A DNA stretch of 64,000 nucleotides from Halopiger djelfimassiliensis (GTDB lineage Archaea; Halobacteriota; Halobacteria; Halobacteriales; Natrialbaceae), in contig NZ_HG315686.1 in the NCBI RefSeq assembly GCF_000455365.1, positions 384,841 through 448,840 on the forward strand. Direction: 5' to 3'. Position numbers and translations under genes: made by a program. The first letter of the stretch is position 1. Each line of letters begins with the position of its first letter. Shown here piece by piece: positions 20,091-42,172 of the stretch. The notes under the pieces were generated by a model. The model was not told where the DNA came from and searched no databases. It worked only from the letters and a program-made list of their open reading frames with translations.

Positions 20091-21401
20091 ATGCAGTCGC
20101 ACGGACTCTCCGAAACCGACGATGGGACCGAACCGGCAGGCGCTCGGCCGTTCGATCGGTACGGCTCCGTTCTCGATTCGACGCTCGCGTACGCCCGTCG
20201 ACGGGAGTACGTCGGACCGGATTACGGCGACGGACTGAGTAGTCGTCTCCTGCAGGCGCTGCCGGTCGACAACAGGTGGCTCAATCTCGCAGTTCAGGAA
20301 ACCGTAAAGCGTGCGCCGATCGACGTTCGACCGCTGTTTCGCGTCGAACACAGGCGCAACTACAAGGGCGCAGCGCTGTTTACGATGGCCAACCTGAACT
20401 ACCACGAGCTAGCGGCTCGGGACGGTGGGGCCGACGCCGCGTTCGATCCGGTCGCGGAGGCCGAACGGCTCGCCGACTGGCTCGTCGACGAGCGGATCAG
20501 GGGGTACAGCGGGTTCTGTGGCGGGCATCGGCATCCGATCCAGCATCTCCATACCAAAGGCGTCCCGAGCGATCCGGACATCGTCTCGACCGCCTACGCG
20601 GTCAGGGCGCTGTTGCGAGCCGCGGACCTGAACGAGGAGTACGCCGAACTCGCCGGGACCGCACGCTCGTTTCTGATCGAGGACCTGAACTATCGGGAGG
20701 TCCCCAACGGTGCCAAGATCGACTACCATATGAACCACCCCGAGGACGCCTACACCATCAACGCGGCCGCCCTCGGGGCCGGGATGCTCGTCGATCTCTA
20801 CGAGTACTTCGGGGACGATGACCTTCGAACCCGCGCGACGAAGATCCTCGATCACGTCGCCGCCACCCAGACCGAACGCGGCGGCTGGCCCTACCGGCTC
20901 CCCGCGTCGGCCTCGCACCTGTCGATGGACAACCACCACAACGGGTTCGTCATCGAAGCGTTCCAGCGATACCGGGACGTCGTGGATGCGGATCGGTACG
21001 CGGAGACCCTCGACGACGCGCTCGAGTTCTACCGGACCGAACTGTTCCAGCTGGACGGCGCGCCGAACTTCGACGAAGAGCACGCCTACCCCCGTGACAT
21101 TCACGCCAGCACGCAGGGGATGCTCGTGTTCACCCGCGAGGGCGACCTCGAGTTCGCCGAGCGCATCCTCCGGTGGGTACTCGCGAACCTGCAGGTCGAG
21201 GAGGGCCAGTTCTACTACCGGAAGTACCGCCACCACACGAAACGCGTGACGCTGATGCGGTGGTGTCAGGGCTGGATGGCCTACGCGCTCTCGGAGTTTT
21301 TGCGGGCCAGCCTCGCGTCCGATACCGGGGCCGCCGGGTTCGAGGCGGAGTCGAGTCGGGCTTTGGGGTCCGGTCGAGTCCCGGCGGAAACGCGGCCATG
21401 A
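20091..21401 (+). CDS. Alpha/alpha-toroid protein of a glycan cluster
   Basis: A 436-residue protein rich in paired helices with aromatic residues (GYSGFCGGHRHPIQHL, YTINAAALGAGMLVDLYEYFGDDDLRTRATKILDHVAA, GGWPYRLP, NHHNGFVIEAFQRYRD), the pattern of six-hairpin toroids such as unsaturated glucuronyl hydrolases or prenyltransferase/terpenoid-cyclase-like folds. Similar haloarchaeal proteins are often mislabelled as antibiotic ABC transporter permeases. It has no membrane helices. It overlaps the GT4 gene by 4 nt (ATGA), so it likely acts with it, perhaps trimming or modifying a glycan. A TATA-like CTATAATAAT lies at 20053-20062. Confidence 0.7.
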   Translation: MQSHGLSETDDGTEPAGARPFDRYGSVLDSTLAYARRREYVGPDYGDGLSSRLLQALPVDNRWLNLAVQETVKRAPIDVRPLFRVEHRRNYKGAALFTMANLNYHELAARDGGADAAFDPVAEAERLADWLVDERIRGYSGFCGGHRHPIQHLHTKGVPSDPDIVSTAYAVRALLRAADLNEEYAELAGTARSFLIEDLNYREVPNGAKIDYHMNHPEDAYTINAAALGAGMLVDLYEYFGDDDLRTRATKILDHVAATQTERGGWPYRLPASASHLSMDNHHNGFVIEAFQRYRDVVDADRYAETLDDALEFYRTELFQLDGAPNFDEEHAYPRDIHASTQGMLVFTREGDLEFAERILRWVLANLQVEEGQFYYRKYRHHTKRVTLMRWCQGWMAYALSEFLRASLASDTGAAGFEAESSRALGSGRVPAETRP

Positions 21402-22624
21402 GCCGCCCGAAGCCGTCGAGCGAACCGGAGACGCCGCCGTCCGGCGCGACGGCTGACGGGTCCCGATCCGCGAACGGGGGGCGTGGCGGTCCCGGAACCG
21501 ACGAGGGGGACGCCGCGCACGGCTCGAGGCGCTCGCGCCGAACCAGCACGTCTTCCGGCCGACGGCCCGGCGAACAGCGCGTGCTGGTCGTGACCGGGCT
21601 GTCGCACAAGAACGAGCGCCATTACGGACCGCTGGCGGCCGTCGCCGGGGACACGACGCTCGTCTGTCTCGACCCCGCGTCGGACGTCGACGGGGCACGC
21701 GCCGTTCGGGTCCCCGACGTCGGACCGCGACTCCTCCGGCTCGTCCTCCTGTTTTTCGTCGCCCTCTACGAGGGCTACCGGAACGACTACGACGCGGTCG
21801 CGTCGATATCGCTGTTCCCGTACGGGTGCTATGCCCTCGCGCTGAAGGCGCTCTACGGCTATCCGGCTCATCTCGGTATCATCGGGATCGACCTCGACCA
21901 CCACGCCCAGCAGTGGTACGGGCCACTCCCCCGGTGGGCGTTCAGGCGGTTCGACGCCGTTTCCGTCCCCGGTTCCGTCCACGCGACCAGACTCGAGCGG
22001 TGTGGCGTTCCGGACGACCGGATCGAACGCCTGACGAACCCGATCGACGTCGAGACGTACCGGCCGCCCGCGGACGGCGACGCCGACACCGACTACGAGT
22101 TCGTCTGGGTCGGCCGGTTCAGCGAGGAAAAGGACCCACACCGGTTCGTCGACGCGCTTGCGGAGCTTTCGGCCTCGGGCCGGGAGTTCCGTGCCGTCAT
22201 GGTCGGCGACGGGCCGCTCCGGCCGGCCGTCGCGGATGAGATCGCTGCCCGCGGGCTGGACGGAGCAGTCGATCTCACCGGCTGGGTCGACGATCCGGCG
22301 GCGTACTACCGTCGCTCGTCGGTGTTCGTCCTCACGTCCGGCCGGGACGCGCTGCCGCTCGTCTTGCTCGAGGCAATGGCGAGCCGACTCGCACCCATCG
22401 CCCCGCCGATCGGATCGATCCCCGACGTCGTCAGCGACGGCGAGAACGGGATCGTCGTCCGTGACCGCGACCCCGAAACTTTCGCCGCGGCGATGGAACG
22501 CTGTCTGGACGAGCCTGCACGCCGGCGCTCGCTCGCGGCGACCGCGACGGAGGTACGCGACGAGTTCTCGATGGAACGGGCGAGCGACGACTGGCGGCGC
22601 ATTCTCGCGGCGCTAACCGCCTGA
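21398..22624 (+). CDS. Glycosyltransferase family 4
   Basis: A 408-residue GT-B enzyme. After a disordered first 60 residues (Pro/Ser/Gly/Arg-rich), VLVVTGLSHKNERHYGPLAAVAGDTTLV begins the N-terminal domain; RLTNPIDVETYRPP is the linker, FVWVGRFSEEKDPHRFVDAL the start of the nucleotide-sugar domain, and SGRDALPLVLLEAMASRLAPIA the EX7E-like motif. Here the first acidic residue is Asp instead of the usual Glu. It transfers an activated sugar onto a lipid- or protein-linked glycan in the cytoplasm. Coupled to the upstream toroid protein. Confidence 0.9.
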   Translation: MSRPKPSSEPETPPSGATADGSRSANGGRGGPGTDEGDAAHGSRRSRRTSTSSGRRPGEQRVLVVTGLSHKNERHYGPLAAVAGDTTLVCLDPASDVDGARAVRVPDVGPRLLRLVLLFFVALYEGYRNDYDAVASISLFPYGCYALALKALYGYPAHLGIIGIDLDHHAQQWYGPLPRWAFRRFDAVSVPGSVHATRLERCGVPDDRIERLTNPIDVETYRPPADGDADTDYEFVWVGRFSEEKDPHRFVDALAELSASGREFRAVMVGDGPLRPAVADEIAARGLDGAVDLTGWVDDPAAYYRRSSVFVLTSGRDALPLVLLEAMASRLAPIAPPIGSIPDVVSDGENGIVVRDRDPETFAAAMERCLDEPARRRSLAATATEVRDEFSMERASDDWRRILAALTA

Positions 22625-22770: not shown

Positions 22771-23790
22771 ATGGACGTTGAACGACTCACCCTCTCGGAG
22801 TGGGACGACGCGCTGCCACACTCCGGGTTCGAAGTGTTCCACGACCCGGATGCGCTTGCCGTCCTCGATGCACACACCGACGCCGACCTCACGCTGTACG
22901 GCGCGTACAAGGGCGGACAGGCGGTCGGCCTGCTCCCGGTCTTCGTCGACGAGCGATCGGTCGGGCGGACGGTCTTCTCACCGGCGGTCTCGCTCGGCGT
23001 TCCCCGGCTCGGGCCGATCATCTCGCCGAACAGCCCGAAACGCAGGAAGTGGGAACGGATCAACGGCGAACTGGCCGACGCGGTCGTCGACGACCTCGAG
23101 ATCGGCAAGCGGTCGACGCTGTTCCGGATGACCTGCCCGCTCGGGTACGACGATCCGCGGCCGTACGCCTGGAACGAGTTCACGACGAAACCCCAGTTCA
23201 CCTACGTCGTCGATCTCACGGACGACGCCGACGTCGAGGACGCCATGGCGGGGTTCAGCAAGAGCCTCCGGAACGAAATGCGTCGGTACGACGAGCTGGA
23301 CCTCTCGATCGAGACCGAAGGGATCGATGCCGCCCTCCGCGTCTACGACGACGTCGTTTCCCAGTACGAACGGTACGACGACACCGCACCGATGTCGCGC
23401 CCGTTCCTCCGGGATCTCCTCTCGAGTCTCGACGACGACCGGTGGCGCGTCTACGTGGCCCGAACGCCGGACGGGACGTACAAGAGCGGCATCATCACGC
23501 TCTTTTCGACCGATCTCGCCTACTACTGGCAGGGGGGAGTCACCGCCTCCTACGAGAACGTCAGCGTCAACAACCTCCTCCATCGGGTCATTCTGGAGGA
23601 CCTCGTCACAGATCCCGCGCTCGAGTCGGTGACGGGGTACGACCTCGTCGGAGCCAACACCGAGCGGCTCTGTGAGTACAAGGGGAAGTTCAACGGGGAT
23701 CTCCGACCGTACTACGTGGTCGAGTCCTCGGGGTTCGAAATGACGCTCGCAAAGTCGGTCTATAGTACGGTGAGCGGATCGTTGAAGTGA
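22771..23790 (+). CDS. FemAB/GNAT-like acyltransferase, copy 1
   Basis: A 339-residue protein with the two tandem GNAT-like domains of the FemAB/FemX family. Visible landmarks are the N-terminal FEVFHDPDALAVL, the central LRNEMRRYDE (positively charged helix), and the C-terminal VTGYDLVGANTERLCEYKGKFNGDLRPYY; the YDLVGA.T...YK.KFN signature recurs in copy 2 at 32326-33336. FemAB proteins add amino acids from aminoacyl-tRNA to peptidoglycan precursors; archaea have no peptidoglycan, so an amino-acid or acyl modification of a surface polysaccharide is inferred. A TATA-like GATAACAAA at 22734-22742 supports the start. Confidence 0.82.
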   Translation: MDVERLTLSEWDDALPHSGFEVFHDPDALAVLDAHTDADLTLYGAYKGGQAVGLLPVFVDERSVGRTVFSPAVSLGVPRLGPIISPNSPKRRKWERINGELADAVVDDLEIGKRSTLFRMTCPLGYDDPRPYAWNEFTTKPQFTYVVDLTDDADVEDAMAGFSKSLRNEMRRYDELDLSIETEGIDAALRVYDDVVSQYERYDDTAPMSRPFLRDLLSSLDDDRWRVYVARTPDGTYKSGIITLFSTDLAYYWQGGVTASYENVSVNNLLHRVILEDLVTDPALESVTGYDLVGANTERLCEYKGKFNGDLRPYYVVESSGFEMTLAKSVYSTVSGSLK

Positions 23791-23833
23791 CGGTCCCGGG
23801 TCCCGATCGTCGGTCGTCGACCGCGGTCGAAGA

Positions 23834-25804
23834 CTACTCCCGCGCGTCGTACTCGACGTCGACGCGTGCGTTACCGTTCAGCCAGAAGTCGACGATGTCG
23901 CCGCTGAACCAGTAGGTGTCCGTCGAGTTCCGGACGGTGCCTTCGATTTCGTTGCCGTCGATGATATCGTCGTCGTCGATCGAGGCGTCCCGGTAGGTCG
24001 ATTTCTCGATCGATCCGGAAACCTTGAACGAGTACGAAACCGGCTCGTCCGACTCCGTCCCGTCGATTACGATCGCGTGCGACGGACGATCCTCCCGGTC
24101 GTCCTCGCCGCTCGTCGCCTCGATGACTTCCTCGGCGGTCATCTCCTCGCCGTCGAGTTCGATCCACATCGCGTCCGGCTGGTCGAGATCGATGGCCGTC
24201 ACGGGACCGTCGACGCGGAAGGCGTCGCCGTAGCCGCCGCCAGTTGCTCCGCCGGCACGGTACGTGCCGTTGTCCGACTCGATGTAATCGTTCGACGAGC
24301 TGCCCTCGATGGAGCCGCCCGACGGGCTCTCGTAGGGTGCCGTCGCGAACTCGACCGGTCCCTCGGCCGTGAACTCGTACTCCGCCAGTCGAGCGTCGGA
24401 CTCCGTTACGAACGCGAGGAGATTGCTCGTGTCCTCGGCGTCGTCGTCCTGCTGGTCGTCTTCCTCTTCGGCCGTCGCTTCGATGACTTCCTCGACGGTC
24501 ATCTCCTCGCCGTCGAGTTCGATCCACATCGCGTCCGGCTGGTCGAGATCGATGGCCGTCACGGGGCCGTCGACGTGGAAAGCGTCGCCGTAGCCGCCGC
24601 CGGTCGCCCCGCCGGCACGGTACGTGCCGTTGTCCGACTCGATGTAGTCGTTCGACGAGCTGCCCTCGATGGAGCCGCCCGATGGGCTTTCGTAGGGTGC
24701 CGTCGCGAACTCGACCGGTCCCTCGGCCGTGAACTCGTACTCCGCCAGTCGAGCGTCGGACTCCGTTACGAACGCGAGGAGGTGGGCATCCTCCGATACC
24801 TCCCCGTCGTCATCGGTTCCGTCGTCCTCGTCACCGTTGGTTGGCGGCGACGGATCGGCACTCGAGGTCCCCGCGGCGGCCTCCTCGGGCGTCAGCGGGA
24901 CGCCCTCGACTTGGTCCGGCTTCGTGCGCGGCGTCCTGTCGGCCGAACTGCCGACGACGCGACCGTTGGAGCCGTGTTTTCCGGTCGTTTCGAAGTACGT
25001 GTTCCGCGCGGTGACCGTCGCCGCGTGGTCCCAGTAACTGTCGCTGACGACGATGTCGCCGTGCTGGCTCGAGTCGCTCAGGTCGCAGTCGACGACCGCC
25101 GTGTCGTGGTAGAAGCCCCAGTAGTTCCGGGTACAGTTCGTCACGACGCAGTTCTCGAGGCGGGAGCCGTCCGATCCGAGCCGAAAGCCCGCGGGGGCAC
25201 AGTCCGCCGCGTACGAGTTTCGGATGATGACTTCCCCGCCACCGCCGCCACCGCTCGGGTGGCTGGACAGGTCGCCGGGGGACGAGCCGTAGACGCCGTT
25301 GTCGGAGAACCCCTGCAGGTTCATGTTCTCCATGATCAGCGTCCCCGCGTGGCTGTTCGCGACGTAACAGCCGGTCGCCGCGCCGCCGTAGGTTCGCTGG
25401 CTGTCGAACGGGGCGGTGCCGTCGGCCCAGTAGAAGTTCTCGACGACGCCGGTCCCGCCCGCGGTAACGTTGACGATGAACGGCTCTTCCTTGGTATCGT
25501 CGTCCCAAGTCCCGCGGATGCCGATGTTACGGACCGCCCAGTCGCTGCCGTTGGCCCGGATGTAGAACTTGGCGTTGTGTGCGGAGATGTCGATCAGCAG
25601 GTTCTCGAGCGTTTCCCCGCTGCCGACGGTGTAGGTAACGGACTGGTTCGCGCCGACGACGACCTCTTCGTAGTCGCCGCTCTGTGCAGCCGCGCCCATA
25701 CTGGCGGCGATCGTGGCTCCGACCCCCGCGACGCCTTTGAGATACGTCCGCCGGTCGAACAGTTGGTCCCGGCGTGTCTCGCTCCCGGTGTCTCGTTCGG
25801 TCAT
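23834..25804 (-). CDS. Tat-secreted right-handed beta-helix protein with internal duplication
   Basis: A 656-residue protein. The N-terminus RRTYLKGVAGVGATIAASMGAAAQS is a twin-arginine signal, so it folds in the cytoplasm and is exported. Residues about 45-300 show short G/N-rich parallel beta-helix turns (LIDISAHNAKFYIRANGSDWAV, VVTNCTRNYWGF), as in pectate-lyase-like carbohydrate-active enzymes. The C-terminal part has a 120-residue module present twice in tandem (97% identical DNA, see repeats), each joined by Asp/Glu-rich linkers, then a final beta domain. It may bind or cleave polysaccharide; no catalytic residues were assigned. Confidence 0.82.
   Translation of the reverse strand: MTERDTGSETRRDQLFDRRTYLKGVAGVGATIAASMGAAAQSGDYEEVVVGANQSVTYTVGSGETLENLLIDISAHNAKFYIRANGSDWAVRNIGIRGTWDDDTKEEPFIVNVTAGGTGVVENFYWADGTAPFDSQRTYGGAATGCYVANSHAGTLIMENMNLQGFSDNGVYGSSPGDLSSHPSGGGGGGEVIIRNSYAADCAPAGFRLGSDGSRLENCVVTNCTRNYWGFYHDTAVVDCDLSDSSQHGDIVVSDSYWDHAATVTARNTYFETTGKHGSNGRVVGSSADRTPRTKPDQVEGVPLTPEEAAAGTSSADPSPPTNGDEDDGTDDDGEVSEDAHLLAFVTESDARLAEYEFTAEGPVEFATAPYESPSGGSIEGSSSNDYIESDNGTYRAGGATGGGYGDAFHVDGPVTAIDLDQPDAMWIELDGEEMTVEEVIEATAEEEDDQQDDDAEDTSNLLAFVTESDARLAEYEFTAEGPVEFATAPYESPSGGSIEGSSSNDYIESDNGTYRAGGATGGGYGDAFRVDGPVTAIDLDQPDAMWIELDGEEMTAEEVIEATSGEDDREDRPSHAIVIDGTESDEPVSYSFKVSGSIEKSTYRDASIDDDDIIDGNEIEGTVRNSTDTYWFSGDIVDFWLNGNARVDVEYDARE
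24114..24421 (-). repeat. Tandem module, copy nearer the C-terminus
   Basis: About 308 nt that match 24474-24781 with only about 10 mismatches (period 360 nt, 120 codons). It encodes LLAFVTESDARLAEYEFTAE onward to WIELDGEEMTAEEV. Differences include a few codon changes. The duplication is in frame inside the beta-helix gene and appears recent. Confidence 0.92.
24474..24781 (-). repeat. Tandem module, copy nearer the N-terminus
   Basis: The partner of 24114-24421, near-identical DNA at 360-nt spacing. In the product this copy has DAFHVDG and MTVEEV where the other has DAFRVDG and MTAEEV; the linkers that follow each copy differ (acidic DD/EE tracts), so the module itself is what was duplicated. 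Confidence 0.92.
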
Positions 25805-25823
25805 GCGATTCAGTCCTTCCTGA

Positions 25824-25839
25824 CTTACTTCCGAGTAAG
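25824..25839 (-). promoter_or_regulatory. Perfect 6-bp inverted repeat upstream of the beta-helix gene
   Basis: CTTACT-TCCG-AGTAAG lies between a TATA-like AATACAA (25843-25850, minus strand) and the ATG at 25804. A short palindrome just downstream of the TATA box is a common position for a repressor operator in haloarchaea. No protein was assigned to it. Confidence 0.45.
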
Positions 25840-26058
25840 ATTGTATTAACCAGTGCTAGCTTTATGATCACCCGAACGTGACGGTATCGAGCCGATGACT
25901 GTCACCGGGGATGGAGTAACGAGGGGCGGAAATTACCGACCGATCACGAACGCCGATCGAGCGTGTTTTTCGCTTTCGGCCATCGGGGGCTCGCCGATCA
26001 CGGGTCGGCGGGATAAACGCGAGCATAGTAAAGGACTCCGTCGGGGTTACAGCCCACA

Positions 26059-27228
26059 ATGCGCGTGAAATCGATCGGACGGCGGCTCGGCGAACGGGGC
26101 TTTCCCTACGCGACCAAAGTAGCCGGGCTGAACTGCGCCCGGATCACACGGACGGAACTGTACGATCGGGCCGCGAGAAACGGCTCCCTGATCGACTACG
26201 GCGAGTTCGAATCGGTGACGGTCCCCGAACCCGACGCCTTCGTGGACGAACTCCCCGAGATGAACCGCTGGATCGGCACCCATACGATATCGAAACCGTT
26301 CGTCGGCGTCCTCTCCGACGTCCGACTCGTCGGCTCGCCCCCGCTGGCGTTTTCCGGGTCGAAGTACGTCGCGGACGCGTCGGTGAGCCGTAACGTCCAG
26401 ACGCTGAACGTCATCAACTCGGCCCGTGAAACGCCGAAACGAATCCTCTCGGGAAACGGCAGGGGAGAGCGACTCGAGGAAGCGGTGCTCCTGCACCACA
26501 GCTGGGTCGACGGCTACTTTCACTGGGTCGCGGAAACCTTGACCCGGCTGGAGGGGGTCGAACGGTACGCGGCCGAGACCGGCCGCCGACCGACGCTGAT
26601 CGTCGGCCCGGAGCTCACCTCGTTCCAGCGCGAATCGCTGGCGCTGCTTGGCTACGAACGCGAGGACCTTCGCAACTGGCAAACCGCCCACTGTACGGTC
26701 GATCGGCTCGTGGTGCCGTCGATGCGCCGGGAGATCGATCCGCCCAACCCGTCCCCGTTCTCCCACCGCTGGCTGCGAACGCGGCTTCGAGAGACGGCCC
26801 TCCGTGAGGCCGACACGTCGCGGTTTTCGGAGCGGGTGTACATCAGCCGCGGCGACGCGGCGAGCCGACGGGTCGTCAACGAGCCCGAAGTCGAGGCCCG
26901 ACTCGAGTCCTATGGGTTCGACTCCTACCGGCTCGCGGAGATGAGTGTACAGGAAACGATCGCCCTGTTCGCGCAGGCGGACTGTCTCGTCGCCCCCCAC
27001 GGAGCCGGGCTGACGGACCTGATCTACACCGACGACGCGGCGGTCCTCGAGTTCATGCCGCGTGACAGGGTCAACGGCGTCTACTTCATGCTCTCGAAAC
27101 AGGTCGGCGACTGGTACGGCTACCTCGCGTGTGACCGGCCCGGCGTCGATCTGGTCGTCGACGTCGACGACCTCGAGTCGATGCTCGAGGCCGCGCTCGA
27201 CCGGGAGCGGCCCGGCCGGATCGCCTAG
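26059..27228 (+). CDS. Glycosyltransferase family 61
   Basis: A 389-residue protein. The core VLLHHSWVDGYFHWVAETLTRL, the ERVYISRGDAASRRVVNEPEVEARL, and the C-terminal CLVAPHGAGLTDLIYTDDAAVLEFMP are the conserved GT61 (DUF563) elements. The family transfers pentose or hexose sugars to glycans. The gene lies between two minus-strand genes and has its own promoter region (TATA-like CATAGTAAAGG at 26024-26034). Confidence 0.88.
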   Translation: MRVKSIGRRLGERGFPYATKVAGLNCARITRTELYDRAARNGSLIDYGEFESVTVPEPDAFVDELPEMNRWIGTHTISKPFVGVLSDVRLVGSPPLAFSGSKYVADASVSRNVQTLNVINSARETPKRILSGNGRGERLEEAVLLHHSWVDGYFHWVAETLTRLEGVERYAAETGRRPTLIVGPELTSFQRESLALLGYEREDLRNWQTAHCTVDRLVVPSMRREIDPPNPSPFSHRWLRTRLRETALREADTSRFSERVYISRGDAASRRVVNEPEVEARLESYGFDSYRLAEMSVQETIALFAQADCLVAPHGAGLTDLIYTDDAAVLEFMPRDRVNGVYFMLSKQVGDWYGYLACDRPGVDLVVDVDDLESMLEAALDRERPGRIA

Positions 27229-27233
27229 CGGGG

Positions 27234-28784
27234 TCAGTTCGTCGAAATCGAATCCAACTGTTCGCCGGACTCGGGCATCCAGCGGCGAACGAAGGGGATC
27301 GACACGCCGAGTTTCTCCTCGACGAGATCGACCACGACGGCGTCGTCCGGCTCGAGCCCGCCCGTGAGGGCGACGACGACGAGCGAGATGACGCCGACCG
27401 CGAGCAAAAGCGGGACGAGGGTCACGGCGGTGATCGAAACCCACGACGAACAGCCGACAGCAAGCGGGAGCAACACGGCCGGCAGGGAGACGTAACACCG
27501 GAGCGCAGCCCCCGAAACCGGAGTGATGTCGTACTCGAGCGCGAGGACGCCACAGATGATCGTGTGGACGATCACCATCGAGGAGACCGACGCGATTCCG
27601 GCCCCGAGGAACCCGTAGCGCGGGATGAGTGCGAGGTTGATACCCACGTTTGCGAGGAGTCCGGCGACGTTACCCACGGCGATCCAGGTGGTCGCTCCGA
27701 CCGCGGAGAGGGTTTCGCGGTCCCGGCCGGCGACGACGCTCAGGAAGAACCCGGCCGCGAGAATCGGAAGGACCGACGCCGCGTCCGCGTACGACGAGCC
27801 GAAAAAGAGCGAGACCATGTCCGCGGGAAAGACGACGAGCAGGAGAAAGAGGGGGAACGTCACGATGTACACCCACTTCGTCGACGTCGCGTAGATGTCG
27901 TCGATGGCATCCCGTTCGCCCGCCGCGTCGAGCCGCGAGGCGATCGGCAGGTAGAGAAAGCCGAACGCGGAGAGGACGACGGTCAGACCGGTCGCGAGCG
28001 GATACGCCGCGTTGTAGAGCCCGACCTCGTACGAGCTGCGGAAGTACCCGAGCATCAGGGTGTCGGTCTGGATGAGCAAGACGCCGATGACGGTCGAGAC
28101 GACCAGCGGCAACGAAAAGGAGAGCAATTCCCGTACGTGCGTGGTGTACCGGCCCCGGAGCGGCATGAGACGGCCGAGAAGGACCAGCGAAACGACGAAC
28201 GAAAGCGCCGCAGCGAGGAGGTAGGCGGCCCCCGCCGCGACGATGTCCATGCCGGCGAGTAACAACAGCGCGATCAGTACGATCCGCAGGAACGGATCGA
28301 GGAAGTTCTGGATGACCGTTCGATAGACCGTATTCTCGTAGCCCCGAACCGCGGCGATGGCGATCCGAAACCCGGCGGTAAACGGAAGCGCGGCCGCGAG
28401 CAATCGCAGGAACGGGATCGCCGCCTCGGTTTCGAACAGGTGCGTGGCGATCGGTTCGGCACAGACGAACAGCACGCCGCCCAGCCCCACCGCGAGGACG
28501 ACCGCGACGAGCAGGCCGCTCACCCAGACACCCCGTCGATCCGCGACGGTCTCGTACCGCGGAATGTACCGGGAGACGCCCTGCGGACAGCCGGCCAGCG
28601 CGACCGTCAGCGTAAACATCAACAGCGCGAGCCCGACGCTTACCTCGCCGTAGGCATCGGGCGAGAGCAACCGGCCGATCACGATCCGCTCGCCAAGGTT
28701 CGCCGCCGTACTTACGACCCCCCCGACCATGACCAGCGCTGCGCTTGAAAGCAGCGCCGACAGCTCGTGCTCTCGGTCGACCAT
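27234..28784 (-). CDS. Polysaccharide/oligosaccharide flippase (Wzx-type, MOP superfamily)
   Basis: A 516-residue protein with about 14 membrane segments. The N-terminal VVSTAANLGERIVIGRLLSPDAYGEVSVGLALLMF and the central LLSFSLPLVVSTVIGVLLIQTDTLMLGYFRSSYEVGLYNAAYPLA are the standard MOP flippase repeats. It would flip lipid-linked oligosaccharide across the membrane for attachment outside. Stops 6 nt from the end of the convergent GT61 gene. A cytoplasmic C-terminal tail of about 30 residues is present. Confidence 0.9.
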   Translation of the reverse strand: MVDREHELSALLSSAALVMVGGVVSTAANLGERIVIGRLLSPDAYGEVSVGLALLMFTLTVALAGCPQGVSRYIPRYETVADRRGVWVSGLLVAVVLAVGLGGVLFVCAEPIATHLFETEAAIPFLRLLAAALPFTAGFRIAIAAVRGYENTVYRTVIQNFLDPFLRIVLIALLLLAGMDIVAAGAAYLLAAALSFVVSLVLLGRLMPLRGRYTTHVRELLSFSLPLVVSTVIGVLLIQTDTLMLGYFRSSYEVGLYNAAYPLATGLTVVLSAFGFLYLPIASRLDAAGERDAIDDIYATSTKWVYIVTFPLFLLLVVFPADMVSLFFGSSYADAASVLPILAAGFFLSVVAGRDRETLSAVGATTWIAVGNVAGLLANVGINLALIPRYGFLGAGIASVSSMVIVHTIICGVLALEYDITPVSGAALRCYVSLPAVLLPLAVGCSSWVSITAVTLVPLLLAVGVISLVVVALTGGLEPDDAVVVDLVEEKLGVSIPFVRRWMPESGEQLDSISTN

Positions 28785-29072
28785 CAGCGATCCCCGGCGC
28801 GATCACCGGGCCGAACGGGACCCAGCGCGGACTCGAGGGCGGACGCGTTCGCCAAGCTGGGTGCTGATCCGGGACTGGCAATTCCTCTCCACGTCGGGCG
28901 TAAACGAGCCGTTCGAAGGGCTGGAACGCCGTTCAGTCGACACATCGAATCGAAAAACCGAACGTGGCGGTTTTGTTATCACGCGACTTCGGCCGGGTAA
29001 CGGTCCCGTTCCGAAGTCGCGGTCGATCGCGGTCGACGCGAAGACAGCGGCCGGCCCCGGATCGAGGTGGGT

Positions 29073-30881
29073 TCACGCCGCCGTGTCGGCGTGGACGTAG
29101 TACAGTTCGAACTCGCCGTTCGACTGGATCCGGTCCACGCCCGGCTGGGTCCGGATGGACTCGAAGTCGTGGTCGCCGTACCGCAGCCCGCGATAGGCGA
29201 TCAGCTCCCGTTCGTAATCGGCCCGGGTCAGCGCGAGATAGCGATCCTCGTCGTACTGGCCGGCGAGTCCGTCGGCGATTGCCTCGTCGGACAGGTCCCC
29301 GTGAAGTCGCATTCGATCTTCGGTCCCGTGAATGGCGTCGTGGTTCCGGTTCGGCCCGTTTCGAAGGCCGAGGAACCTGTATTCCTCGTTTCCGGAGTCG
29401 AACGCGGTTTCGTAGCCGTGCAGTTGCTGGTCGGTGACGTGTGGCGACGCGTTGTAGGTGTACGGCGAGGGGAAGACGGCGGCAAGCGACAGGAGCACCA
29501 AAAGGGCGAACCCGACCGCAAGCGCCGGGTGGCCGGCTCGAGCGACGGAGCCGTCCGGAGTGTGTGATGTCCCCGCCGCAAGCCGATGGACCGCAACCGC
29601 GCCGAGAATCGTCACGAACACCATGACCAGCCCGAACACGCGAAAGTGCATCATCGACCCCGGGGCGACGAAATAGACGACGAACAGGACCCCGAGTCCG
29701 CACAGCCCGACGACGAAGTAAGCCGTTTCGGGACGGACGCCGTCGAACCGGGGCCACCGTCGCCACACGCCGACGACGAGCACGCCGACGAGGACGGTAC
29801 CCACGAGCTGTGGAAAGAAGAGTTTGAAGAAGATTTCCGTCAGGCTCCCGCCGATAGCCGCCAGCGACGCCCCTTGCATCGCGACGGTATCGCCCGCGCG
29901 GCCGCCGGTTCCGAGAAGGAACTCCATCGCGGAGCCGAGAAAGAACCCGACGACGTCGACGACGAACCCGTGGTTGGAGATCCAGGCGAGGAAGACGGCC
30001 CCCAGAAACGCCGTCTGGCCGTACAGCGGCGTCTGCTCGCCGATCCGGCCGCCGCGGACGAGGTGTCGGCCCAGAAACTGTACGAGACAGATCCCCAGAA
30101 ACACCACGAGCACGTGAGCCACGAGCTGTGGGTGATAGACGACGGCACCGGCCGACGCGACCGCGAACGCGATGCCGACCGCGGAAAGCGTCGCCGCCTC
30201 CCGGTCCGTCCGGAGATACTTCGTCAACAGGTACACGAGGACCGTCGAAAACAACACCGCCTGCGACATCGCGTGAGCCTCCATGTACATCGATATCGTC
30301 GTGATCGGCAACAGCAAAAACGCCACAAACGCAGCGGTTGCAGCCGCGCCCCGTTCGGGAACGATCGTGGTCACACACAGCGGTACGAACACGCAAAACA
30401 CCAGCACGGCAAGGAAGACGACGAGAAGCATCGCCCTCGAGAGCGGAATTCCGAGCGCCGCGTTGACGAACACCGTCGTCGTGTGAATACCGGGGTAGTA
30501 CAGGTCGAACGGAACGATGGTCCCGTCGGCGATAGCTCTGGCCCAGCCGAGATGGGTTAACGCGTCGTGGTGGCCGTAAAAACGGTAGCCGCGGATGATC
30601 GGGAGACCGGTGAAGACGGCCATCACCAGTCCGCCGAGTACGAGCGCAAGCGGGCGGCTTCCGTGGCTCCCCGCGGTCGGGACGAAGACGACCGCGAGTG
30701 CGACGCTCAGGGCGACCAACAGCCCGGCCCAGACCAGCGGCGGCGTCATCGTGTACACCGAAAGTTCGTACCCGGTGGCCGGGTTGGCATGTGCCACGAG
30801 CGCGCTGGTCCCGACCGCGAGGAATCCGATGGCCAGCGCCAGCTTCCGGAACGGATCGTCGCCGGGTGACTCCGTTGACAT
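29073..30881 (-). CDS. Polytopic membrane protein, GT-C-like
   Basis: A 602-residue membrane protein with about 12-14 helices and an extracytoplasmic C-terminal domain of about 130 residues. The first loop has RGYRFYGHHDALTHLGWARAIADGTIVPFDLYYPGIH, where a D near the end of the first loop plus H residues is the pattern of GT-C glycosyltransferases that use lipid-linked sugars; the family cannot be named with certainty. The C-terminal part (YRFLGLRNGPNRNHDAIHGTEDR) is beta/alpha. The start at 30881 gives MSTESPGDDPF; an in-frame Met 8 codons upstream is possible. Confidence 0.72.
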   Translation of the reverse strand: MSTESPGDDPFRKLALAIGFLAVGTSALVAHANPATGYELSVYTMTPPLVWAGLLVALSVALAVVFVPTAGSHGSRPLALVLGGLVMAVFTGLPIIRGYRFYGHHDALTHLGWARAIADGTIVPFDLYYPGIHTTTVFVNAALGIPLSRAMLLVVFLAVLVFCVFVPLCVTTIVPERGAAATAAFVAFLLLPITTISMYMEAHAMSQAVLFSTVLVYLLTKYLRTDREAATLSAVGIAFAVASAGAVVYHPQLVAHVLVVFLGICLVQFLGRHLVRGGRIGEQTPLYGQTAFLGAVFLAWISNHGFVVDVVGFFLGSAMEFLLGTGGRAGDTVAMQGASLAAIGGSLTEIFFKLFFPQLVGTVLVGVLVVGVWRRWPRFDGVRPETAYFVVGLCGLGVLFVVYFVAPGSMMHFRVFGLVMVFVTILGAVAVHRLAAGTSHTPDGSVARAGHPALAVGFALLVLLSLAAVFPSPYTYNASPHVTDQQLHGYETAFDSGNEEYRFLGLRNGPNRNHDAIHGTEDRMRLHGDLSDEAIADGLAGQYDEDRYLALTRADYERELIAYRGLRYGDHDFESIRTQPGVDRIQSNGEFELYYVHADTAA

Positions 30882-30957
30882 TCGACTGGCGTGACGTTCG
30901 CCCATTTCGGGCCTTGTTATTCGCCGGTTGCCGTCCGGAAGTCGGCTGATACCGCCG

Positions 30958-31995
30958 TTACTCGTCCCCGCCGTCCTCGGTCAGGTCGACCCAGACGTAG
31001 GCGTATCGGTACGCGTTGTCGGTGGTCGCCGTCTCCGGGACGCCGTCCTCGTACAGCAAAACGGTAATCCGAACGGTGCCGCTCTCGGCTTCCGGCGTCA
31101 CCGACCGGTCGGTATAGCTGGTCTCCCCGTCATCGACGCGCTCGTCGAACCGCGCCAGTTCCGTTCGCTCGTGGACCTCACCCCCGTCGAGCCACTGCTC
31201 TTGGACGACGATCGTATACGCCGCGTCCTCCCCCTCCCGGTTCTCGAGGGCGATCGTCAGCGGGACCGAGTCGCCGGGTTCGATCGCGTCGGGATAGCCG
31301 TCCGCGACCGGTTCGCCGGACTCGTTCTCCGTCAGCAACTGGACCGACGTGTACTGCTCGCCCTGCTGTGGCGAGACGAGCGCGTACCCGACGCTCGAGA
31401 ACGCGAGACACAGACTGACGACGAGGACGACGTTGACGGTCGCGTGGACCACGGAGTCGGTTCCGAACATCGCCGACCGGACGGCTCCCAGTTTTCGACC
31501 GAGGTGGAGCCGATACCGCTCCTCGGGGGGGATTCGGACCCGTCTGATCGCGGCGACGACGGTCCCGATCAGCGTGACAGCGCTTACGGTCCCGACGACG
31601 ACGGTGCCGGTAAACGCAAGCGACAATGTACCGATGAGCAAGCCGAGAAGCGGCAGTACGGCGACGCTCAGCCCGAACGACAGCGCCACACGCTCGAGGT
31701 CGGTCACCGACACCGTCTGTCCGATCACGGCGTTTGACTCCGACGCCTCGATCGCAGCGGCGCGTGGAAACAGGGTCGCGACCGTCGCGTACCCGGGAGC
31801 GAGAAACAACAGCGGCACGCCGATCGCCGCTCGCACGACCCGTGAGACGGGGTCGACGACAGTCAAGAGGGCCGCGGCGATGGCGACGAACCCGGCAACG
31901 CCGACCAGATCGATCGGGAGTCGCGCAAAGAGGTGTCTGGTTCCCCGGCCGGCGACGACGAACGGCCGGCACGTTCGGAGCAGGAGCTTCTTCAT
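30958..31995 (-). CDS. DUF1616 membrane protein, copy 1
   Basis: A 345-residue protein: three to four N-terminal helices with the DUF1616 signature (FLAPGYATVATLFPRAA), a central amphipathic segment, another helix, and a C-terminal extracellular beta-rich domain of about 130 residues (QYTSVQLLTENESGEPVADGYP onward). Function unknown; DUF1616 proteins occur beside surface glycoproteins and glycan genes. A paralogue with the same plan is at 49858-50913 next to two PGF-CTERM proteins. It is 76 nt downstream of the GT-C-like gene. Confidence 0.85.
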   Translation of the reverse strand: MKKLLLRTCRPFVVAGRGTRHLFARLPIDLVGVAGFVAIAAALLTVVDPVSRVVRAAIGVPLLFLAPGYATVATLFPRAAAIEASESNAVIGQTVSVTDLERVALSFGLSVAVLPLLGLLIGTLSLAFTGTVVVGTVSAVTLIGTVVAAIRRVRIPPEERYRLHLGRKLGAVRSAMFGTDSVVHATVNVVLVVSLCLAFSSVGYALVSPQQGEQYTSVQLLTENESGEPVADGYPDAIEPGDSVPLTIALENREGEDAAYTIVVQEQWLDGGEVHERTELARFDERVDDGETSYTDRSVTPEAESGTVRITVLLYEDGVPETATTDNAYRYAYVWVDLTEDGGDE

Positions 31996-32251
31996 TGATC
32001 GGGATTTCGATCGGCTCAGCCATTGTTACTGGTCGCATAACCGATCGCCGGTGACGGCCCGTCCGCGCTCGCTGTTCCCGTCCGGTGGCGACGTGTCCCC
32101 GGCGTCTCCGGAGTGACGACGGGCGGATCGCCGCCGCGTGCCTCGAGGGCGACGCGCCGGGACGCGTCGACCGGACTCGGCATCCGTTGCCGGGACCGAT
32201 CCGACCGGAAACGAGTCGCTTACAAAGGTATCAGCGAGGGTGCCATCCAGT
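31996..32251. other. Intergenic region before the FemAB-like copy 2 unit
   Basis: About 256 nt between the divergent DUF1616 gene and the 25-codon upstream frame. It holds BRE/TATA-like GGAAACG (32208-32214) and CTTACAAA (32219-32226), 26-33 nt before the ATG of that small frame. Nothing else was recognised. Confidence 0.5.
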
Positions 32252-32329
32252 ATGAGCCACGGACCGACCGACCGACGTCTCGCCGAGCGAGCGTCTCGAT
32301 TGGCCGCTCGAGGGGGTGCAGTCGAATGA
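32252..32329 (+). CDS. 25-codon upstream cistron overlapping the FemAB-like gene
   Basis: A tiny frame, product MSHGPTDRRLAERASRLAAR (then GGAVE), ending in TGA that shares ATGA with the start of the following FemAB-like gene. A TATA-like CTTACAAA lies 26-33 nt before the ATG, so a leaderless mRNA would start here and translation would reach the large gene by coupling. It is basic and helical with no hydrophobic segment. Could be a real micropeptide or only a coupling device; not enough to decide. Confidence 0.45.
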   Translation: MSHGPTDRRLAERASRLAARGGAVE

Positions 32330-33336
32330 GCGTCGACGTTCGCCTCGCGACCGACGACGACCGCGACCGCTGGAACGACTACGTCGAGCAGTCGCCGCAG
32401 GGAACGCTCTGTCACGAACTCGAGGCGCTTCGCGTTCAGGCAGACCACGCCGACGCGACGCTCCATCCGCTGGTCGGGTTCAAGGGGCAGGAGCCGGTCG
32501 GGATCTTCCCCGTTTTCGAGATCGACAAACGCATCGTGACGACGGTCTTTTCGCCCCCGCCACGGCTCCGCGTGCCGTATCTCGGCCCGGCGTTTCTGAA
32601 CATGGCCAAACTGAAACAGCGAAAGCGCGAGCGGCGACGACAGCGGTTCATGGACGGCTGCTTCGAGTGGATCGAGTCCGAACTGTGCCCGAAGTACGGC
32701 CACGTCAGGACGTCGACTGCCGTGACGGACTCGCGCCCGTTCAAGTGGAACGCGTACGACGCGACGCCGAAGTACACCTACGCCGTCGATCTCACGCCCC
32801 CGGCGGACGATCTCCTGCTGACGTTCAGCAGCGACGCGCGACGTAATATCACCACCACCGACGACGACGCATACGAGATCGACGTCGGCGACGAAGCGGC
32901 GATCCGGTCGATACACGAGCAGGTCAGGAGCCGCTACGAGTCCCAGGGGATCGACTTCGACGTCCCCGTGGAGTTCGTCCTCGATCTCGCCGACCGATCG
33001 CAGAACGGCCACGTCCGACCCTACACGCTGTCGGTCGACGGCGAGTTCGTCGGCGGCATCCTCGCGCTCGAGTACGGCGACACGACGGGCCGGTGGATGG
33101 GCGGCGTCCGGCCCGACGCGGACGTCGACGTGCCGACGAACGACTTGCTCGACTGGGCGATCATGGAAGACGGCCTCGAGCGAGGGATCGAGACGTACGA
33201 TCTCGTCGGCGCTGACACGCGCCGGATCAACCGGTACAAGGCGAAGTTCAACCCCGAGTTGCGGACGTACTACGGCCTCGAGTACGGGAGCTGGGGAATG
33301 CGGGCGGTCGCGTCGGTGTACGATTCCGTCAAGTGA
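32326..33336 (+). CDS. FemAB/GNAT-like acyltransferase, copy 2
   Basis: A 336-residue paralogue of the protein at 22771-23790. Shared parts: LVGFKGQEPVGIFPVF (N-terminal GNAT), a basic central region (AKLKQRKRERRRQRFMDGC), FSSDARRNITTTDDD, and the C-terminal IETYDLVGADTRRINRYKAKFNPELRTYYGLEY with the same YDLVGA.T...YK.KFN core. It is inferred to add an amino acid or other acyl group to a surface glycan. The ATG overlaps the 25-codon upstream frame; the longer in-frame extension is not supported because its codons are non-haloarchaeal in pattern. Confidence 0.82.
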   Translation: MSVDVRLATDDDRDRWNDYVEQSPQGTLCHELEALRVQADHADATLHPLVGFKGQEPVGIFPVFEIDKRIVTTVFSPPPRLRVPYLGPAFLNMAKLKQRKRERRRQRFMDGCFEWIESELCPKYGHVRTSTAVTDSRPFKWNAYDATPKYTYAVDLTPPADDLLLTFSSDARRNITTTDDDAYEIDVGDEAAIRSIHEQVRSRYESQGIDFDVPVEFVLDLADRSQNGHVRPYTLSVDGEFVGGILALEYGDTTGRWMGGVRPDADVDVPTNDLLDWAIMEDGLERGIETYDLVGADTRRINRYKAKFNPELRTYYGLEYGSWGMRAVASVYDSVK

Positions 33337-33535: not shown

Positions 33536-35149
33536 ATGAACGATGGATCTTCCCTCCGGACGCTGCTCGTCGGCATCGATGCCGCCTGTCATCGGGTGCT
33601 GAATCCGATGTTCGAAGACGACACGTTGCCGACGCTGGAACGGATCTACGAGGGCGGGGCCAGCGGGCCGCTCGAGTCCCAGATCCCGCCGTGGACGGCC
33701 TCGGCGTGGCCGTCGCTGTACACCGGGATGAACCCAGGAAAGCACGGCGTCTTCGGGTTTCTCTCGTTCGACGGCTACGACTGGGACGTGGTCAACGCGA
33801 CCGACGTCCGAGAGCGGACGCTGTGGGAACTGCTCGACCGGCACGGGATCACGAGCGTCGTCGTCAACGTCCCCGTCACGCATCCACCCCGGGAGTTCGA
33901 CGGGGCGTTGATTCCGGGCTATACCGCGCCGGAAGACCCCGACTGCCACCCCGACGGGCTGCTCGACGAGATCCGTGAGGCGATCGAGGCGTATCGCGTC
34001 TATCCCGACGAGGACGCGCCCGACCGCGCAAGCGCGTACAGCGACTGCGTTCGCATGCGCGGCGAGGCGTTTCGCTACCTCGTAGACCGGTTCGATCCCG
34101 AGTTCGGGTTCGTCCAGTTCCAGGCGACGGACTCGATCTTCCACGAGCAGCCGGACGACGACGCGGCGATCCGCTCGATCTATCGGGCGGTCGATCGACA
34201 ACTCGAGGCGATCCTCGCGGCCCACAAGCCGGCGACCGTGATCGTCGCCAGCGACCACGGCATGGGACCGTACGACGGCACGGAGTTCCGGATCAACGAG
34301 TACCTCCGCAGGGAGGGCCTCGTCGAGACCGCGCGGGGCGGACGGGGGATGCCCACCTGGGCGACGGTTCGCGACGACTCGCTCAAGCAGGGCGAGGACG
34401 CCGGCCGACATGCTCCCGGCGTCGCCGAACGAGCCATGGCGATCGCCGCGCGGACCGGCCTCACGAGCCAGCGGATCGGGGCCGTCCTCGAGCGCCTTGG
34501 CCTCGACGAGTTCGTCGCAAGCTACGCGCCGACCGGGCTCGTCAACGCCGGAACGACGCAGGTCGACTTCCCGGACTCGACGGCCTACGTTCGATCGCGG
34601 ATCGAACTGGGCGTTCGTATCAACCTCGAAGGACGCGAACCCGACGGCGTCGTTTCGCCGGACGACTACGAGGCGGTCCGGACCCGGATCATCGACGCTC
34701 TGCGATCGGTGCAAACGCCCGACGGGAACCCGGTGTTCGAGGCCGTTCGGCCCCGAGAGGAGTACTTCCACGGCCCGGAAAGCCACCGCGCCGTCGACGT
34801 CGTGACCGTTCCGGCGTCGTTCGATCACTTCCTGTCGGCGACGCTGCGAGCCGACCAGTTCGGACCGCCGAGCGAACCGTGGAACCACAAACTCGAGGGG
34901 ACCGTCGCGGTCCACGGCGCGGGCGTCGATCCCGACGCCGGCGTCGGCTCCGCCCACCTCTTCGACGTCGCACCCACCGTCCTGTCGACGCTCGACGTGC
35001 CGATCGACGAGCGGATGGACGGCACGGCTCTCCCCTGCGTCGACGCCACGGGCGGACGGGAGTATCCTCGACTCGACGCCGGCCGCGCAGTCGAGACGGC
35101 GGACGACGCCGTCGAGAAACGGCTTGCGGATCTGGGGTATCTCGAGTAA
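33536..35149 (+). CDS. Alkaline-phosphatase-superfamily phosphodiesterase/phosphatase
   Basis: A 537-residue protein of the type I phosphodiesterase/nucleotide pyrophosphatase group. The metal-binding start LLVGIDAACHRVL, the nucleophile region PPWTASAWPSLYTGMNPGKHGVFGF (catalytic Thr), the central GFVQFQATDSIFHE and the C-terminal VIVASDHGMGPYDG with the metal-binding D-H are all present. No signal peptide, so it acts in the cytoplasm. In this context it could process phosphorylated or sulfated glycan or lipid intermediates; the substrate is not known. Confidence 0.85.
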   Translation: MNDGSSLRTLLVGIDAACHRVLNPMFEDDTLPTLERIYEGGASGPLESQIPPWTASAWPSLYTGMNPGKHGVFGFLSFDGYDWDVVNATDVRERTLWELLDRHGITSVVVNVPVTHPPREFDGALIPGYTAPEDPDCHPDGLLDEIREAIEAYRVYPDEDAPDRASAYSDCVRMRGEAFRYLVDRFDPEFGFVQFQATDSIFHEQPDDDAAIRSIYRAVDRQLEAILAAHKPATVIVASDHGMGPYDGTEFRINEYLRREGLVETARGGRGMPTWATVRDDSLKQGEDAGRHAPGVAERAMAIAARTGLTSQRIGAVLERLGLDEFVASYAPTGLVNAGTTQVDFPDSTAYVRSRIELGVRINLEGREPDGVVSPDDYEAVRTRIIDALRSVQTPDGNPVFEAVRPREEYFHGPESHRAVDVVTVPASFDHFLSATLRADQFGPPSEPWNHKLEGTVAVHGAGVDPDAGVGSAHLFDVAPTVLSTLDVPIDERMDGTALPCVDATGGREYPRLDAGRAVETADDAVEKRLADLGYLE

Positions 35150-35316: not shown

Positions 35317-36452
35317 CCGAGATCGCGATCACGGATGCGGTCGACGCCTACCTCCAGCGAAAAGCCGTCGGCGACCCCGACGGGCCGGGGGCGGGTGCCT
35401 ACGCGGCAAACGCCGAGTCGATCCTGCGGCGGTTCGCGGACTGGATCGACCGCGAGCACGGCGTCGAATCGCTGGCCGCGCTCGAGGCCGACCACATGCG
35501 GGCCTACGCCGCCGAACTCCGCGACCGAACCGACCGGGGGAAGTACACCGCCTCGACCGCCGGCACCTACTACGCGGTCGTCCGAGCCTTTCTCTCGTGG
35601 TGTGTCCGCGGCGGCATCGTCGACACGAACCCGGCGGCGACCGAGACGGCCACGGCCGAACTGCCACGCACCGAACAGCGGCCGGCCGACGACCGCTGGA
35701 CCGCCGAACACCGCCGCCGACTCGAGACCTACGTCCGCAAGCGAGCGCTGGGCACCGGTGCCGACGGGACGGACCGCGATCCCGAGACGCGTCGTAACCG
35801 CTTGCGCGAGTACGCCATGGTCGCCCTGCTCGCCCACTCGAGCGTTCGCGGGGCCGAACTGTTCCGGGTCCCGGAGGACGACCGCCGGACGGGAGCGACC
35901 TGGGAGGACGTCGACTTCTACGCGGGAACGATCCGGGTGCTGGGGAAATCCCAGCGGCTCGAGGACGTTCGACTGCTGGCACCGGCCCGAACCCCGCTGC
36001 GACGGTATCGGGTCGTCCTCGATCCGCCGTCGAACGACTGGCCGCTGTTTCCGACCCGCCACGCGCCGTCGATCGCCCGTCGCGTCCGGGAGACGCTCCG
36101 GGACCGCGGGTACGGCGAGGACGAGATCGAGTCGCTGCTCGAGCGACGGACCGCGAGTCAACTCGCCCGCGAGCGGTCGATCGTACCGCCGGCGATCACG
36201 ACCGAAGGCGCACGCTCGGTTCTCAAACGGCTCTGTGCCGAGGCCGGCGTCGACGAAGACTCACTGACACCGCGGAGCGTTCGCGGCGAGCACGACGACG
36301 AGCGGTCACGCCGTGAGGCGTCCCAGCCGACCCCGGCGCTGCGTGCGTCCGTCGGCGAGCGATCGATCGCCGTCCCTCGCCCTCGCCCGTCGGTCCCCGA
36401 CGCCGGCTCGAACCCCGGGGCCGACGGCGACGGACCGACGGGGACGAACTGA
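35313..36452 (+). CDS. Tyrosine-recombinase-like protein, possibly inactive
   Basis: A 379-residue XerC/D-type protein. The N-terminal core-binding domain spans about 1-120 (ESILRRFADWIDREHG, YYAVVRAFLSWCVRGGIVDTNPA). The catalytic domain keeps the first Arg (AHSSVRGAELFR) and the beta-hairpin Lys (VLGKSQRLEDVR), and the HxxR position reads RSVR. The usual C-terminal 'GH.S...T...Y' region reads VGERSIAVPRPRPSVPD, with no tyrosine. It may be inactive or repurposed. The GTG start overlaps a 19-codon upstream frame. No flanking attachment site was found. Confidence 0.78.
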   Translation: MTEIAITDAVDAYLQRKAVGDPDGPGAGAYAANAESILRRFADWIDREHGVESLAALEADHMRAYAAELRDRTDRGKYTASTAGTYYAVVRAFLSWCVRGGIVDTNPAATETATAELPRTEQRPADDRWTAEHRRRLETYVRKRALGTGADGTDRDPETRRNRLREYAMVALLAHSSVRGAELFRVPEDDRRTGATWEDVDFYAGTIRVLGKSQRLEDVRLLAPARTPLRRYRVVLDPPSNDWPLFPTRHAPSIARRVRETLRDRGYGEDEIESLLERRTASQLARERSIVPPAITTEGARSVLKRLCAEAGVDEDSLTPRSVRGEHDDERSRREASQPTPALRASVGERSIAVPRPRPSVPDAGSNPGADGDGPTGTN

Positions 36453-41823: not shown

Positions 41824-42172
41824 CGACGCGCACCTCCCGCAGCGTATCCTCGCGAAGCGTCCCGTACTCCGAGTAGATGCGGATCACCAGTGCCAGCCCG
41901 ACGGCCGTCAGCGCGATGCCGACGACGATGGCGGTCAGGACAATGACCTGTGGAAGCGGACTCGCGACCCTCCCGTCGGCGGGGACGATCGGGGACGAAC
42001 CCCCATCGACGTACGCCATCGAGATGAAAAACAGGAAGATCGCCGACTGGAAGAGGCTCACCCCGATCAGCTTCTTCACGAGGTTCTCGTTGGCGATCAC
42101 CATGTAGAGGCCGATCCCGAGCAGGACGAACAGCAGGACGTACGTGTACCTGTTCGCGAGCGTTTCAATCAT
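41816..42172 (-). CDS. mnhC: Mrp/Mnh antiporter subunit C (NuoK-like)
   Basis: A 118-residue three-helix protein: NRYTYVLLFVLLGIGLYMVIANENLVKKLIGVSLFQSAIFLFFISMAYVDGG then PQVIVLTAIVVGIALTAVGLALVIRIY. The membrane Glu (in ANENL) and the pattern are those of MnhC/NuoK. Overlaps mnhB by 8 nt and mnhD by 8 nt, implying translational coupling. Confidence 0.93.
   Translation of the reverse strand: MIETLANRYTYVLLFVLLGIGLYMVIANENLVKKLIGVSLFQSAIFLFFISMAYVDGGSSPIVPADGRVASPLPQVIVLTAIVVGIALTAVGLALVIRIYSEYGTLREDTLREVRVDE

Follow-up and report, generated by a model that had tools for sequence, protein, structure and literature searches.

What would an enzyme of the FemABX type, known for modifying peptidoglycan, do in a cell that has none? 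Haloarchaea lack peptidoglycan, and yet two genes raise this question in the 64,000-nucleotide stretch of the Halopiger djelfimassiliensis genome analyzed here (the window; contig NZ_HG315686.1, positions 384,841 to 448,840): F1 (22771 to 23790, forward strand, 339 residues) and F2 (32326 to 33336, forward strand, 336 residues, with a longer, GTG-started frame possible from 32113). An initial annotation, which located both open reading frames correctly, called the products FemAB-like acyltransferases and proposed that they decorate a surface glycan with amino acids or other acyl groups. Here, we argue for a more specific role. We hold it moderately probable that F1, and probably F2, belong to an archaeal Wbp/Vim-like pathway that makes an aminoacylated diamino-uronic sugar for a surface glycan.

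F1 and F2 are full-length paralogs, 34% identical over their whole length (BLASTP E=6e-39), far beyond chance, and in the tree they form two old, well-supported clades. Both match the Pfam family PF13480 (Acetyltransf_6), with scores of 72.6 and 74.5 bits, respectively, against a gathering cut-off of 22 bits. Against the FemAB family PF02388 (gathering cut-off 24 bits), F2 reaches 18.5 bits, and the Pfam scan gave no match for F1. Similarly, the NCBIfam scan returned no model for F1 and a weak, partial match of F2 to TIGR03019 (XrtA FemAB; 23.7 bits). A PHROGs search gave no match, and single-protein sequence searches of the PDB returned nothing useful. Public databases annotate proteins of this type as GNAT family N-acetyltransferases. 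The core motif highlighted in the initial annotation, YDLVGA followed by YKxKF, is present in both proteins, and six of its positions (Y290, D291, G294, Y303, K304, and K306) are identical in 47 of 47 aligned relatives. A basic stretch is conserved as well in these otherwise acidic halophile proteins (K90, R92, and K93 in F1; KLKQRKRERRRQRF in F2). The genome contains four PF13480 genes; the further paralogs lie at C3:511136-512143 and at about C2 573563-574657, and the C2 copy is nearer to TIGR03019 (64 bits) and to FemX models than are F1 and F2.

Predicted structures connect both proteins to aminoacyl-tRNA enzymes. Specifically, the AlphaFold2 models are confident (pLDDT 91.7 for F1 and 90.3 for F2), and the best PDB match of the F1 model is Weissella viridescens FemX (E 2e-13, TM 0.70), with Sbb17/Sba18, FmhB (the S. 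aureus FemX), MprF/A-PGS, and FemA among its further top matches. The F2 model matches Sba18/Sbb17 best (E 4.8e-15, TM 0.68-0.79), then FmhB, FemX, and FemA. For both models, the first ~20 matches are aminoacyl-tRNA enzymes, and CoA-dependent tandem GNATs rank further down. A profile of the haloarchaeal family, used on sequence alone, also retrieves FmhB (E 4.8e-7) and FemX (E 3.7e-5) from the PDB, and Sba18/Sbb17 weakly (0.02). The profile alignment pairs YDLVG of F1 and F2 with YDLGG of FemX. The invariant lysine, K304 of YKxKF, lies ten residues beyond that motif, near the place of the FemX catalytic Lys305, a position given by profile alignment and not by residue-level superposition. The models support a FemABX-type double-GNAT fold. 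The description FemAB-like is apt for the predicted fold and not for the family: by the Pfam cut-off, F1 and F2 belong to Acetyltransf_6 and not to FemAB, and it is their fold that resembles FemX.

The putative partner, predicted to expose the acceptor amine, is a deacetylase encoded at 16301 to 17422 on the forward strand. Its only NCBIfam match is NF053580, VimE, whose full name is UDP-2,3-diacetamido-2,3-dideoxy-alpha-D-glucuronate deacetylase (E 4.8e-17, 61.6 bits). Because the equivalog cut-off, 440 bits, is far higher, we treat the protein as a relative of VimE and do not call it VimE. BLASTP aligns it with Parabacteroides VimE at 23% identity (E 8e-16). That reference protein scores 731 bits on the model and has VimA as its neighbor, in an intact bcp-recA-vimA-vimE operon (bcp-recA-GNAT-deacetylase). 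VimE is identical at 33 positions that are at least 95% conserved in the haloarchaeal deacetylase family, and the residues in common comprise H69, D70, and D72 (HDVD), H176, R207, H209, and the pair W299 and H300 (WH). Judged by sequence, the haloarchaeal deacetylase is related to VimE and shares its metal and active-site motifs. The F1 family profile, for its part, aligns with Parabacteroides VimA over 254 columns (hhalign 97%, E 5e-11), a remote likeness in which this VimA lacks the F1 lysine (ERFF for EYKG). No membrane segment was found in F1, F2, or the deacetylase, as is expected of enzymes working on tRNA or a nucleotide sugar. Methanogen deacetylases in the phylum sample outscore the haloarchaeal ones on the VimE model, reaching 155 bits; the deacetylase on a Methanosarcina vacuolata plasmid has a flippase nearby and no annotated FemAB-like neighbor.

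The bacterial pathway that contains VimE offers a chemical template. In Porphyromonas and Tannerella, Wbp enzymes make UDP-2,3-diacetamido-uronate, the C-2 acetyl group is thought to be removed by VimE, and VimA then adds serine or glycine (PMC7468200). Exchanging vimA between the species exchanged the amino acid; VimA sets the choice between serine and glycine (PMC7468200). That paper discusses bacterial relatives, and the word "archaea" is absent from its text.

Deacetylase and F1 nearly always travel together across Halobacteriales; this is the co-occurrence that the initial annotation proposed to look for, and its idea of a link passes the test. Among 245 sampled Halobacteriales genomes, 115 contain an F1 ortholog and 129 contain the deacetylase; both are present in 112, F1 only in 3, the deacetylase only in 17, and neither in 113 (Fisher p=1e-46, a value that overstates independence because the sampled genomes share ancestry). 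The genes are also close to each other. In 70 of 93 F1 loci, the deacetylase lies in the same ~20-kb piece as F1; 69 loci have both genes on one strand, 62 have the deacetylase upstream of F1, and in 38 the two are immediate neighbors. Co-occurrence and adjacency support a functional link between F1 and the deacetylase. The two copies, initially treated alike, differ in this respect: the presence of F1 follows that of the deacetylase, whereas F2 is also found without it, and F2-type genes are present in 24 genomes that lack both F1 and the deacetylase.

The other common neighbors spell out a sugar pathway. Most frequent are WbpD-type hexapeptide acetyltransferases, together with WbpE (a DegT aminotransferase), WbpB (a Gfo/Idh dehydrogenase), WbpA (a nucleotide-sugar dehydrogenase), and WbpI (a UDP-GlcNAc 2-epimerase). 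In Haloferax mediterranei, on pHME505, and in H. alexandrinus, the whole set lies on one strand in the order WbpD-E-B-A-I, deacetylase, c4 (a conserved cluster protein), F2, F1. In H. mediterranei ATCC 33500, the locus tags are E6P09_RS16715 for the deacetylase, E6P09_RS16705 for F2, and E6P09_RS16700 for F1. The window's own genome carries WbpD-E-B-A at C3:476846-480991, ~28 kb downstream of the window end, and a WbpI homolog on another contig (contig 5). The predicted sugar has already been seen in a haloarchaeon: three of the four residues in the repeat of the Haloferax denitrificans exopolysaccharide are 2,3-diacetamido-glucuronic acid (PMC3191746).

The notion, then, is that the Wbp enzymes would make UDP-2,3-diacetamido-2,3-dideoxy-uronic acid (GlcNAc3NAcA or its ManNAc3NAcA epimer), from which the VimE-like deacetylase would first strip one N-acetyl group, freeing an amine. 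By FemX-type chemistry, cytosolic F1 would place an amino acid on that amine, most likely from aminoacyl-tRNA. F2 may attach one more residue or act on another sugar, and the linked glycosyltransferases and flippase would build the aminoacylated sugar into a surface glycan. Computation supplies the fold, the invariant motif, the homology of the deacetylase, its co-occurrence with F1, the order of the genes, and the presence of Wbp genes in this genome; we infer that the donor is tRNA rather than CoA, which amino acid is moved, what exactly accepts it, and what F2 does. The analogy with VimA and VimE supports amino-acid transfer by F1 and F2, with the limit that VimA's own use of aminoacyl-tRNA is unproven. 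The deacetylase was originally cast as exposing amines on a polysaccharide. The partnership itself is borne out by linkage; the deacetylase most resembles the nucleotide-sugar deacetylase VimE, which makes an activated diamino-uronic sugar a likelier acceptor than a completed polysaccharide. Several findings count against a Wbp/Vim-like pathway: the scores below the FemAB Pfam and VimE equivalog cut-offs, the remoteness of the VimA likeness and the lysine missing from this VimA, the location of this genome's Wbp genes outside the window, with WbpI on another contig, and the 24 genomes in which F2-type genes stand without F1 and the deacetylase.

The genes around F1 and F2 are those of a glycan cluster, as first described, with glycosyltransferases, a flippase, and a deacetylase. 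The interval initially delimited, 22771 to 33336, encloses a family 61 glycosyltransferase (26059 to 27228, forward; PF04577 E 1.5e-22) and a Wzx-type flippase (27234 to 28784, reverse; PF01943 E 1.5e-27), and the deacetylase lies outside it. A GT4-type glycosyltransferase (21398 to 22624, forward; PF13692/PF00534 E about 1e-32, scanned from a longer frame starting at 21173) is encoded ~150 bp upstream of F1, and a DUF354-type glycosyltransferase (18804 to 19922, reverse; PF04007 E 1.5e-6) is a conserved cluster member found in 64 loci. Protein c4 (20091 to 21401, forward), present in 44 loci and located immediately before F2 in Haloferax (pHME505), has only weak LANC_like and Pec_lyase matches; because these are alpha/alpha-toroid-fold matches, they suggest a candidate uronate-acting enzyme. 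The Haloferax counterpart of c4 is annotated "antibiotic ABC transporter permease," and c4 of the window has no membrane segment. F2 has as its divergent neighbor a DUF1616 membrane protein (30958 to 31995, reverse; PF07760 E 3.8e-91), beside which lies a polytopic DUF6541 membrane protein conserved in 43 loci (29073 to 30905, reverse; PF20176 E 1.8e-5). A phosphodiesterase of the alkaline phosphatase superfamily (33536 to 35149, forward; PF01663 E 4.2e-33) is a frequent F2 neighbor, found in 62 loci. Next to F1, a reverse-strand gene (23834 to 25804) encodes a predicted Tat-exported protein with an RRTYLKG... start and two near-identical stretches of ~85 residues (LLAFVTESDARLAEYEFTAEGPVEFATAPYESPSGGSIEGSSSNDYIESDNGTYRAGG...). 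Finally, a XerC/XerD-like tyrosine recombinase gene (35496 to 36452, forward) lies between the glycan cluster and genes for Mrp-type Na+/H+ antiporter subunits (36492 to 44756, reverse), a position suggesting an island boundary.

Could F1 and F2 instead be CoA-dependent N-acyltransferases that attach some other acyl group, rather than an amino acid, to the deacetylated sugar amine? The Pfam family name and the public GNAT annotation point that way, CoA-dependent tandem GNATs do appear lower in the fold-search lists, and for the related Caulobacter HfsK/HfsH pair the acyl group is unknown. We nonetheless consider this alternative unlikely, given that the ~20 top PDB matches are aminoacyl-tRNA enzymes, that the FemX-like lysine is invariant, that the deacetylase is related to VimE, with VimA as a precedent, and that the pathway already contains a separate hexapeptide acetyltransferase, WbpD.

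A second alternative concerns the acceptor. The initial annotation regarded amino-acid decoration of a haloarchaeal surface glycan as undescribed; for the chemistry, this is mistaken. N-glycyl-glucosamine, which partly links polysaccharide domains, was reported in 1979 from the Halococcus morrhuae cell wall (PMC4187196). Like our proposal, this is an amino acid on a haloarchaeal amino sugar; the sugar is glucosamine, not a proven diamino-uronate. Our literature searches found no gene or enzyme proposed for it. In our sample, one genus probably represents Halococcus, a reading drawn from the similarity of two proteins only, F1 and NucS, to those of Halococcus dombrowskii: F1 matches at 60-71%, and NucS at 70-84% in genomes with a near-full copy and at 60% or less elsewhere. 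F1, F2, and the deacetylase are all present in 10 of 10 sampled genomes of this genus, and at the inspected loci Wbp genes lie near F2 and the deacetylase. H. dombrowskii itself carries F1 on a plasmid, where no deacetylase was found within 12 kb of F1. In this alternative, the amino acid would go not to a Wbp nucleotide sugar but to glucosamine within a polysaccharide or a lipid-linked glycan, giving N-glycyl-glucosamine. The N-glycyl-glucosaminyl bridges documented in Halococcus and the full gene set in the ten putative Halococcus genomes are consistent with this possibility, and the genomes with F2 only, which have no VimE-like gene, need another acceptor. On the other hand, the deacetylase looks like one that works on nucleotide sugars, its neighbors include Wbp genes for diamino-uronate synthesis, and the identity of the genus rests on those two proteins; we judge a glucosamine acceptor to be quite improbable. 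F1, F2, and the deacetylase are candidate genes for the N-glycyl-glucosamine of the Halococcus wall and could explain the 1979 report of glycine.

Despite the FemX fold, there is next to no chance that F1 and F2 are bacterial-type FemAB enzymes that modify peptidoglycan or a cross-bridge resembling it: the gene context, which is glycan and Wbp/Vim-like and not Mur, leads us to reject it. We also rejected a carboxyl acceptor, as in the methanococcal N-glycan, in which AglU places threonine on the carboxyl of a uronic acid; literature searches gave nothing usable, and a deacetylase would be an ill-suited partner for an enzyme whose acceptor is a carboxyl group.

An aminoacylated diamino-uronic sugar, our preferred product, would have consequences for archaeal surface biology. 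To our knowledge, the diversion of charged tRNA to the decoration of surface sugars is known only from bacteria; if our reading is right, archaea do this as well. It would also give a concrete function to a widespread, vaguely annotated haloarchaeal pair, a GNAT and a polysaccharide deacetylase. Bacteria offer precedents for both fold and chemistry; our literature searches found no description of the archaeal pathway assignment, of the near-perfect pairing of F1 with a VimE-like deacetylase, or of the link to the Halococcus wall. All of these genes lie in a single cluster in Haloferax mediterranei, an archaeon that can be grown in culture, so the proposal is open to direct testing there. We further speculate, as a long shot, that protein C-termini become joined to the free alpha-amine that the aminoacylated sugar carries, much as the type IX system of Bacteroidota does it. 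If so, haloarchaea would link a glycan to the C-terminus of some surface proteins via a sortase-like enzyme, and a candidate substrate would be a predicted PGF-CTERM-like surface protein (17419 to 18762, forward; weak PGF_pre_PGF match; tail ...PAPGFGV, a hydrophobic segment, and RTRRE) adjoining the deacetylase. The gene for this protein overlaps the deacetylase stop codon, and its family recurs in 23 loci.

Several known systems frame these findings. FemABX enzymes (Weissella FemX and Staphylococcus FmhB and FemA) share with F1 and F2 two GNAT domains in ~335-340 residues, the lysine motif, and a TM of about 0.7 to FemX, but identity is 10-15%, the Pfam FemAB score falls short, and F1 and F2 have no peptidoglycan acceptor. 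Sba18/Sbb17, the best structural match of F2, are aminoacyl-tRNA-dependent peptide synthases solved with the bound antibiotic precursor streptothrisamine; they differ in serving bacterial antibiotic biosynthesis and are ~12% identical. The XrtA/PEP-CTERM system likewise places a FemAB protein (TIGR03019) and a deacetylase (TIGR03006) in an exopolysaccharide locus, with partial profile matches to the haloarchaeal proteins. However, TIGR03019 calls for 260 bits and an exosortase in the locus, and F2 and its Haloferax counterpart lie far below that score (23.7 and 37.8 bits). Exosortases (PF09721, a model that misses most archaeosortases [ArtA]) were detected in 50 of 245 genomes, none near F1 or in the window's genome. 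Caulobacter holdfast HfsK/HfsH also combines a Fem-like transferase and a deacetylase on a surface polysaccharide, in a bacterial system controlled by c-di-GMP. Finally, the haloarchaeal set differs from the Wbp/Vim pathway of the P. gingivalis and T. forsythia linking sugar in its remote sequences (VimA is found by profile only), its archaeal host, its two FemX-fold transferases, and its lack of a known type IX secretion system. Nevertheless, both have Wbp enzymes, a VimE-related deacetylase, and an adjoining FemAB-like transferase, and both likely share one chemistry: deacetylate the sugar, then aminoacylate the amine.
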